From: a bacterium
GTDB lineage: Bacteria; SZUA-79; Acidulodesulfobacterales; Acidulodesulfobacteraceae
Assembly: GCA_003232385.1 (NCBI GenBank)
Contig: QIJE01000027.1
Location: forward strand, 1-54,965
Direction: 5' to 3'
DNA length: 54,965 bases
The notes under the pieces were generated by a model. It was not told the origin of the DNA. It worked only from the letters and a program-made list of their open reading frames with translations, and did no database searches. The position numbers and the translations under genes were made by a program. Each line of letters starts with the position of its first letter. Positions within the stretch are counted from its first letter, which is position 1. Shown piece by piece: positions 1,624 through 49,247 of the stretch.

Positions 1624-2793
1624 TCAACTATTTGCATTATATAACGGTGACATCTGTCTCAATTTTTTAACTATCGGAGGCAGCTCTTTAACAAAATATT
1701 CGGCATCTTCGAGTGTATTGTCCTCACCCAAGGATATGAGCAGCGAGCCTTGCGCAAGCGCCGGGTCAACCCCTATAGCATTCAGCACGTGAGACGATTT
1801 TAGAATCTTGGACGTGCAGGCGGAACCGCTTGCCGTCATAATTCCGTTGTTATTAAGCCACATGAGCATGGACTCTCCCTCAATATATTTAACTACGAAG
1901 TTTAAATTATTCGGAAGCCTATGCTCCGGATGACCGTTTAAATATACCTCGTCAAGGCTGCCGAGCACTCCGTCTTTAATTGCTTTTTGAATGGGCAGAA
2001 GATGTGCCGTTCTGTCTTTAAGCTCTTTTTTTGCAAGCTCGCATGCAACGCCTACTCCGGCTATGGCGGGGATGTTCTCCGTACCCGCTCTTCTCCCGAA
2101 CTCCTGAATACCGCCGTCTATCAGGGGCATTATACGAATGCCTTTTTTAAGGTAAAAAAGCCCTGTCCCTTTCGGTCCGTAAAACCTGTGCGGTGAAGCG
2201 GAAAGCATATCCGCTCCCATGTCTTTTACGTCCGTTTCTATAAAGCCGCAGGAGGTGTTGGCATCAACATGCATGTATGCGGCAGAATTCTCGTGAACTA
2301 TTTTAGAAATTTCTTTAATATCTTGAATAGTACCGATTTCGTTTGAGGCGTGCGTTATGCTGACAAGTATCGTATCTTTTCTCAGCGCATTTTTTACATC
2401 CCCCGGATCAACCGAACCGTATTTATCGACGGCAATTTCACTAAATTCGAAACCGAGCCTTGATAGGGATTTAATGGCGTTTAAAACACTAAAATGTTCT
2501 ATTTTAGAAACGATCATATGTTTGCCCTTATCCATTCTGGCAAAAGCCGTTCCTTTAATCGCTAAATTATTAGACTCCGAACCGCTTCCGGTAAATATTA
2601 CCTCGTTAAGAGCCGCGTTCAAAAGCTCCGCGGACTGATTTCTCGCCTTGCCGAGCGCCTCCCTCGGCTCGTCTCCGAGCGTATGTATACTCTGAGGATT
2701 GCCGTATTCGTCAATAAAAAACGACTCCATAGCCTCTTTAACTTCCGGCCTCATCCTTGTTGCCGCAAAATGGTCGAAATTTCTTATTTTCAC
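1624..2793 (-). CDS. iscS: IscS/NifS-like protein lacking the PLP lysine
   Basis: A 389-residue class V aminotransferase-fold protein of the cysteine desulfurase family. The fold is clear: GSESNNLAIKG (substrate and phosphate loop, ~70-81), His100, SNEIGTIQ (~150-157), VDA with Asp177, GRRAGTEN (~233-240), and the sulfur-accepting Cys326 in ASGSACTS. But the Schiff-base lysine is replaced: the usual SxHK reads SPHRFYGPKG, with Arg203 at the lysine position, and the conserved Gln after VDA is Thr180. Normal PLP catalysis should therefore be impaired. From memory, Archaeoglobus fulgidus IscS also lacks this lysine and works with IscU in a sulfide-rich cell; this protein shares its C-terminal style (LRQMSPLY). 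It probably binds IscU at the dimer and may use sulfide or an external sulfur donor. Start is GTG with GGGAGG five bases upstream. Confidence 0.88.
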   Translation of the reverse strand: MKIRNFDHFAATRMRPEVKEAMESFFIDEYGNPQSIHTLGDEPREALGKARNQSAELLNAALNEVIFTGSGSESNNLAIKGTAFARMDKGKHMIVSKIEHFSVLNAIKSLSRLGFEFSEIAVDKYGSVDPGDVKNALRKDTILVSITHASNEIGTIQDIKEISKIVHENSAAYMHVDANTSCGFIETDVKDMGADMLSASPHRFYGPKGTGLFYLKKGIRIMPLIDGGIQEFGRRAGTENIPAIAGVGVACELAKKELKDRTAHLLPIQKAIKDGVLGSLDEVYLNGHPEHRLPNNLNFVVKYIEGESMLMWLNNNGIMTASGSACTSKILKSSHVLNAIGVDPALAQGSLLISLGEDNTLEDAEYFVKELPPIVKKLRQMSPLYNANS

Positions 2794-3050: not shown

Positions 3051-3440
3051 TTACTTTAACGAATTTAAATAAGACGCAAGATATAATAATTCTTTTTTAG
3101 AAAGCATTTTGTGGTCCGGCATAATCGCCATATATGATTTACCGTTAACCTTTACTATGGAACCCGGTTTAAAATGCTTTGAAGGTGTTGCAATCTGAAC
3201 TTCAAGCCACTTAATAGAGTGATTCGCCAAACCTTCTTTGGAAAGATTAGGACCTATGTTGCCGCCCTTTTTCCCTATGGCATGACATGCAAAGCAATCA
3301 ATGCCCGCTTTATGCGAATAAATGAGCTCGTTGCCCAGTTGCGCTGCGGACAGCTTAACCGGAGCCGTAACGGCATGAACGGTAATATAACCCAAAACTA
3401 TAACAAGAACGATAAAAATAACTATAAATCCTGTTTTCAT
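3051..3440 (-). CDS. monohaem class I c-type cytochrome
   Basis: A 129-residue protein with an N-terminal hydrophobic segment (residues ~4-22) that is a signal anchor or uncleaved signal peptide, so it likely sits in the periplasm tethered to the inner membrane. One CxxCH motif (CFACH, Cys49-Cys52-His53) binds a haem. A methionine in the C-terminal part (AIMPDH, Met107) is a candidate sixth ligand. The IGPNLS segment after the haem motif and the final LASYLNSL helix are typical of small class I cytochromes. Such proteins shuttle electrons to or from respiratory complexes. It appears to be a single-gene unit: a strong GAGGGGGG ribosome binding site precedes the ATG and a hairpin terminator follows. 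The partner enzyme is not in the window. Confidence 0.88.
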   Translation of the reverse strand: MKTGFIVIFIVLVIVLGYITVHAVTAPVKLSAAQLGNELIYSHKAGIDCFACHAIGKKGGNIGPNLSKEGLANHSIKWLEVQIATPSKHFKPGSIVKVNGKSYMAIMPDHKMLSKKELLYLASYLNSLK

Positions 3441-49013: not shown

Positions 49014-49247
49014 TCATGATTTTTGAATATAAAATTTAAACTTTCCACCCTCTTCAACAGAATCTAAAAGTTTATTGCCGGTCCTGTTGCACCATGCTAC
49101 CATATCGTTTTTAGAACCCGGATCCGTAGAAATAACTTCTAAAATCTCCTCCGAATTCATAGTATCAATTTCCTTCTTAGTTTTAACAATAGGTAGCGGA
49201 CATGATAATCCGCTTGCATCAAACGTCCTGTTAGGGGTTACTGCCAT
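49014..49247 (-). CDS. tusA: TusA-family sulfur carrier protein (second copy)
   Basis: A 77-residue TusA-fold protein with FDASGLSCPLPIVKTKK; Cys16 is the expected persulfide carrier and Cys53 an extra one (AWCNRTG). It is as long as the copy at 801-1034 but clearly different in sequence, so the two are probably not recent duplicates. It has a near-ideal ribosome site (AAGGAGGT) and its own promoter. It stands alone on the minus strand between pilP and a transporter-like gene, so partner proteins are unknown. Confidence 0.9.
   Translation of the reverse strand: MAVTPNRTFDASGLSCPLPIVKTKKEIDTMNSEEILEVISTDPGSKNDMVAWCNRTGNKLLDSVEEGGKFKFYIQKS

Follow-up and report, generated by a model that had tools for sequence, protein, structure and literature searches.

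A lysine-less, TusA-linked IscS homologue appears to be a widespread bacterial partner of IscU

Our data point to a branch of IscS-type proteins, widespread in bacteria, that partner IscU without desulfurase chemistry and are tied to the sulfur carrier TusA. The representative described here, iscS*, lies on contig QIJE01000027.1 of assembly GCA_003232385.1, whose 54,965 nucleotides were analysed as a whole and are referred to as the window. The named relatives of its host, Candidatus Acididesulfobacter / Acidulodesulfobacterales, come from acid mine drainage. IscS proteins lacking the pyridoxal phosphate (PLP) lysine are already known in archaea, and the sequences compared here suggest that this archaeal oddity appears as a widespread, TusA-linked variant in bacteria.

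The iscS* gene starts with a GTG codon preceded by GGGAGG and shares one strand with iscU and tusA, from which it is separated by gaps of 79 bases (iscS*-iscU) and 63 bases (iscU-tusA). Codons 200 to 204, TCA CCG CAC AGG TTT, encode SPHRF (Ser-Pro-His-Arg-Phe), where Escherichia coli IscS has SGHKI. The original prediction that CAC AGG places His202-Arg203 at the Schiff-base site was borne out, as was its assignment of Thr180 to the position of Gln183, which contacts PLP in E. coli IscS. A third change lay outside that prediction: Leu352 occupies the position of E. coli Arg354, which we take from established knowledge of the IscS/NifS family to bind the carboxylate of the cysteine substrate. 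The arginine of the SLGR motif (E. coli 359) was considered as the substrate arginine and rejected in favour of Arg354, since it is at the wrong position and varies among lysine-bearing enzymes. The mobile-loop cysteine is retained, as had been claimed, with Cys326 equivalent to E. coli Cys328. The PLP-stacking residues His100 and Asp177 are also present, so PLP binding by IscS* may persist.

IscS* therefore has neither the Schiff-base lysine nor the substrate-binding arginine of the NifS/IscS cysteine desulfurases, and it keeps their loop cysteine and their fold (TM 0.92-0.96 to IscS/NFS1 structures). It scores below the NCBIfam equivalog cut-offs for both NifS (TIGR03402, 436.6 of 530.75) and IscS (TIGR02006, 344.6 of 643.2). 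The structure model has a pLDDT of 91, and its best PDB matches are the Archaeoglobus fulgidus IscS entries 4r5f, 4hvk and 4eb5. Taken together, the three losses are strong sequence evidence against formation of the usual aldimine by IscS* and against its binding of cysteine. Because the PLP lysine, the glutamine contact and the substrate arginine are all lost, the protein would no longer extract sulfur from cysteine, in line with the loss of normal desulfurase chemistry that had been anticipated.

Table 1. Features of the iscS* region and related genes in the window.
Feature	Position	Strand	Evidence or remark
iscS* (IscS/NifS-fold pseudo-desulfurase), 389 aa	1624-2793	minus	Pfam Aminotran_5, 223.8 bits
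Arg203, codon AGG, at the Schiff-base lysine position	2185-2187	minus	E. coli Lys206
Thr180, at the PLP-contacting glutamine position	2254-2256	minus	E. coli IscS Gln183
Leu352, at the substrate-carboxylate arginine position	1738-1740	minus	E. coli IscS Arg354
Cys326, mobile-loop persulfide/cluster-ligand cysteine, retained	1816-1818	minus	E. coli IscS Cys328
iscU (NifU_N scaffold)	1098-1544	minus	TIGR03419, 218.3 bits (cut-off 187.9); PF01592, 172 bits
tusA, sulfur carrier, Cys17 in CPMP	801-1034	minus	PF01206, 71.9 bits
Second TusA	49014-49247	minus	90 bits
SoxX-like small cytochrome c	3051-3440	minus	

The IscU encoded next to IscS* keeps all its ligands (Cys35, Asp37, Cys60, His103 and Cys104), which agrees with the original prediction and supports, at the level of sequence, a continued partnership of the two proteins. 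The predicted neighbouring TusA is also there: its product has the CPxP motif and belongs to the TusA fold family. It does not reach the TusA equivalog cut-off (51 of 78) and, by inspection, has no counterpart of a conserved residue of E. coli TusA, Asp45. The TusA-facing residues of E. coli IscS show no special conservation in the alignment of homologues. A better-scoring second TusA is encoded in the window at a distance from iscS*, and the genome encodes seven TusA-like proteins and three that resemble DsrE2, with one pair adjacent on contig C18. With seven TusA-like proteins, the TusA partner of IscS* is not unique. A SoxX-like small cytochrome c gene lies immediately upstream of iscS*, as it does in four relatives (L012, L017, L019 and L045), and an adenine phosphoribosyltransferase-like gene follows further upstream. 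A search for Rfam elements near the operon found none.

The altered site is conserved in the window's phylum. Arginine stands at the lysine site in 27 of the 27 phylum genomes where iscS* was found and is likewise invariant in 18 relatives, encoded by the synonymous codons AGA and AGG alone. The gene is under strong purifying selection, with a median dN/dS of 0.042 over 59 pairs; a sequencing error or a pseudogene was rejected on these grounds. The neighbouring histidine is not strictly kept, as one phylum member (L017) has SPQR instead of SPHR. At the 18 relative loci examined, tusA adjoins iscS* in every case, either upstream or downstream, and iscU does so in 16. Searches at these loci gave no match for IscA, HscA, HscB, Fdx or IscX.

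The phylum appears to have no scaffold system other than the IscS*-IscU pair. Among 30 phylum genomes, exactly one NifU_N protein was found in 26; in one more it is split into two pieces, and in three none was found; wherever this protein and iscS* share one contig, they adjoin. The IscU of Table 1 is the only NifU_N protein found in its genome. In the SufBD survey, no genome of the phylum had a reported match (20 listed as zero, none among the positives). At one locus (L064, 4696-6504) the iscU frame ends after about 30 residues and gives way to unrelated sequence close to the end of the contig, which is probably a chimeric assembly. In a metatranscriptome of the window's group, nifU, nifS, iscS and sirA (TusA-family) were among the top transcripts, and nifS/nifU were interpreted as serving nitrogenase maturation (PMC6776010). 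Since one NifU_N protein was found per genome, these nifS/nifU transcripts may instead derive from the iscS*-iscU locus.

We then compared homologues from a sample of 386 genomes drawn from across the bacterial domain. Outside the phylum, the closest homologues are lysine-less as well and occur in at least 17 other families; the site holds Gln, Ser, Thr, Val, His, Gly, Asn or Arg, and the loop cysteine is always present. In the first sample, Arg354 is missing from all 28 lysine-less proteins and kept in 66 of the 67 lysine-bearing ones. The exception, L102, lies inside the lysine-less clade and near a tusA. Wider sampling added three more proteins that keep the lysine without Arg354 (L243, L246 and L248), and no protein with the opposite combination was found among the sampled homologues. 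The simplest reading of this asymmetry is that the loss of Arg354 preceded that of the PLP lysine. The four lysine-keeping proteins are candidate evolutionary intermediates, and three of them adjoin tusA.

In the alignment, lysine and glutamine are both kept in 82 of 82 homologues with Arg354. Among the 50 without it, the lysine is missing in 46 and the glutamine in 43, and Asn155/His205 are often lost as well; Cys328, Asp180 and His104 are kept in all 50. The residue that replaces the lysine varies widely (Q, R, S, V, H, T, N, G, D, E, I, L, M or P). This argues for lost rather than replaced chemistry, and substitution by one defined residue was rejected, as the site shows no pattern and differs between lineages. 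Every lysine-less genome checked also encodes a paralogue with both lysine and arginine, except G258, which has one homologue, and G347, whose second is only a fragment. The original prediction had suggested looking for such a lysine-bearing desulfurase elsewhere in the genome, and it was found: the only other cysteine desulfurase in the window's genome is 36% identical, keeps SGHK and the arginine, and lies beside mnmA and cysE. Selenocysteine at an in-frame TGA of this second desulfurase was rejected, the stops lying outside the coding part in the one case read (L055).

A tree was built without the lysine, arginine and glutamine columns, using quick searches and SH-aLRT support only. It places 53 of 54 Arg354-less proteins on one side of a branch with 95% support. 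A. fulgidus IscS falls outside, and one arginine-bearing PDB protein (9wep) falls inside. An AU test did not reject a single clade of all Arg354-less proteins, A. fulgidus included (p-AU 0.83), and the tree constrained to such a clade exceeded the free quick tree by 37.6 log units. A single origin that includes A. fulgidus is compatible with these results and not proven by them.

The genomic neighbourhoods, scored for same-strand genes within 3 kb, point to a link with TusA. In the first sample, TusA is found at 10 of 21 lysine-less loci outside the window's phylum versus 1 of 65 lysine-bearing ones (Fisher 1e-6), and the latter is itself Arg354-less. DsrE2 (PF13686) shows the same tendency (9 of 21 versus 0 of 65) and MnmA the reverse (0 of 21 versus 19 of 65). 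In the enlarged set, TusA adjoins 37 of 52 Arg354-less genes versus 0 of 81 Arg354-keeping ones; these counts are not population frequencies, because its members were selected for their similarity to the window protein and to L066. Six IscS* loci have no TusA within 3 kb (L071, L073, L077, L104, L106 and L128). In another large phylum, 139 of 296 sampled genomes have a match at E 1e-110, some of which are not IscS*. The 39 loci examined there, from among the closest, are all lysine-less, with tusA directly upstream in 38 and iscU directly downstream nearly always. The presence of tusA changes at least 11 times on the tree; its association with Arg354 loss is essentially the property of one clade, which leaves too few independent contrasts to test it phylogenetically. 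SufBD was found in 2 of 19 surveyed lysine-less genomes outside the phylum versus 159 of 291 overall. Four loci (L067, L068, L072 and L109) carry IscS*-DsrE2-TusA sets without an adjacent iscU, which suggests that IscS* may also serve a sulfur-carrier chain beyond IscU.

The unit resembles known systems in part. Like the minimal system MIS (MisS-MisU), it has a core of two IscS/IscU-type proteins and neither hsc genes nor fdx, and it has the pair without adjacent carriers or chaperones and a scaffold above the TIGR03419 cut-off. MIS, however, is described as including a cysteine desulfurase (PMC12192291, PMC11559095), whereas in the IscS* unit this function is, judged by sequence only, apparently lost, and TusA is linked. 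The three protein families are also those of the E. coli IscS-TusA-IscU relay, in which IscS has distinct binding sites for IscU and TusA (PMC2854127). There, IscS makes a persulfide from cysteine and passes it to TusA; IscS* appears unable to do so, and sulfur would therefore flow in the opposite direction. Among archaea, Methanosarcina acetivorans IscS1, compared here by description only, is reported to lack the catalytic lysine and to lie beside an IscU (PMC7585200).

The closest likeness is to A. fulgidus IscS2 (PDB 4eb5, 4eb7 and 4hvk), which was solved in complex with IscU. Its sequence (4eb5) was confirmed by a PDB search, which gave identity over 382 residues. It reads SSND at the lysine site (Lys to Asp) and TLLL at the Arg354 site, so that it shares with IscS* the loss of the lysine, a leucine in place of Arg354 and the retained loop cysteine; Ala replaces Gln183, and 4r5f is its D199K mutant. 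With both residues lost, the cysteine kept and an IscU partner, IscS* is of the A. fulgidus type, although the archaeal protein has Asp rather than Arg at the lysine site and its tree position is weakly resolved. The parallel drawn in the original prediction thus holds, except that the supposed likeness at the C-terminus has no diagnostic value: E. coli IscS has the MSPLY ending too, as LSPLW.

We consider it reasonably probable that IscS*, dead in PLP chemistry, docks IscU and relays sulfur from TusA as the presumed donor. IscS* would form an IscS-fold dimer that presumably still docks IscU with its flexible-loop cysteine intact. Sulfur would arrive as a TusA persulfide, in a direction that we infer to be the reverse of E. 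coli IscS to TusA, and would pass through Cys326 to IscU, the site of cluster formation. Cys326 may in addition serve as a transient ligand of the cluster, as in A. fulgidus. For its part, TusA could be loaded either by the canonical desulfurase, whose gene lies elsewhere in the genome, or with inorganic sulfur by way of DsrE2-type carriers. An A. fulgidus-like function, in which IscS* docks IscU and lends Cys326 as a ligand, free sulfide feeds the cluster and TusA serves another step or pathway, seems unlikely to us and still carries real weight. According to PMC7585200, which cites Marinoni 2012, Pagnier 2014 and Yamanaka 2013, A. fulgidus IscS has no desulfurase activity and coordinates the IscU-bound cluster through a cysteine. 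The compatible single clade and the best structural match of the model favour this function too, as do the sulfide feeding demonstrated for SMS (PMC12192291) and the plentiful free sulfide of a sulfate reducer. It leaves the recurrent TusA and DsrE2 neighbours unexplained. As to the sulfide-fed unit of the original prediction, the TusA linkage points more to a carrier-bound persulfide than to free sulfide.

The invariant His100 and Asp177, and the PLP drawn in the A. fulgidus IscS-IscU complex 4EB5 (PMC9769115), suggest that PLP may still bind, and IscS* could then be a weak cysteine desulfurase by unusual chemistry, using free PLP or another lysine. We find this very improbable, given the accompanying losses of Arg354, Gln183 and often Asn155/His205 and the variable lysine-site residue. 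The near-universal canonical paralogue might alternatively form a heterodimer with IscS* as a regulatory or adaptor subunit; we give this hardly any credence, since nothing links the two genes and the phylum's paralogue is so divergent and sits with mnmA/cysE. Returning to TusA-fed relay by IscS*, we tentatively propose a broader history that we regard as slightly more likely to be wrong than right: an ancient and large IscS branch of SUF-poor bacteria and A. fulgidus abandoned cysteine, losing Arg354 and then the lysine, and TusA (in some lineages DsrE2) became the donor, so that clusters are made from carrier-borne persulfide and not by a scaffold-bound desulfurase.

Every Fe-S assembly system except SMS is described as including a cysteine desulfurase (PMC11559095, PMC12192291). 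In the open literature that we searched, we found no description of the bacterial branch, of the Arg354 loss or of the TusA/DsrE2 linkage, which supports the view of an under-described bacterial unit; Garcia et al. 2022, in defining MIS, may have noticed it earlier. Our analysis suggests that, in bacteria with IscS*, TusA brings the sulfur for iron-sulfur cluster assembly. If so, the function given in many 'nifS/iscS' annotations would be wrong, and the source of Fe-S cluster sulfur in many bacteria would be an open and directly testable question.
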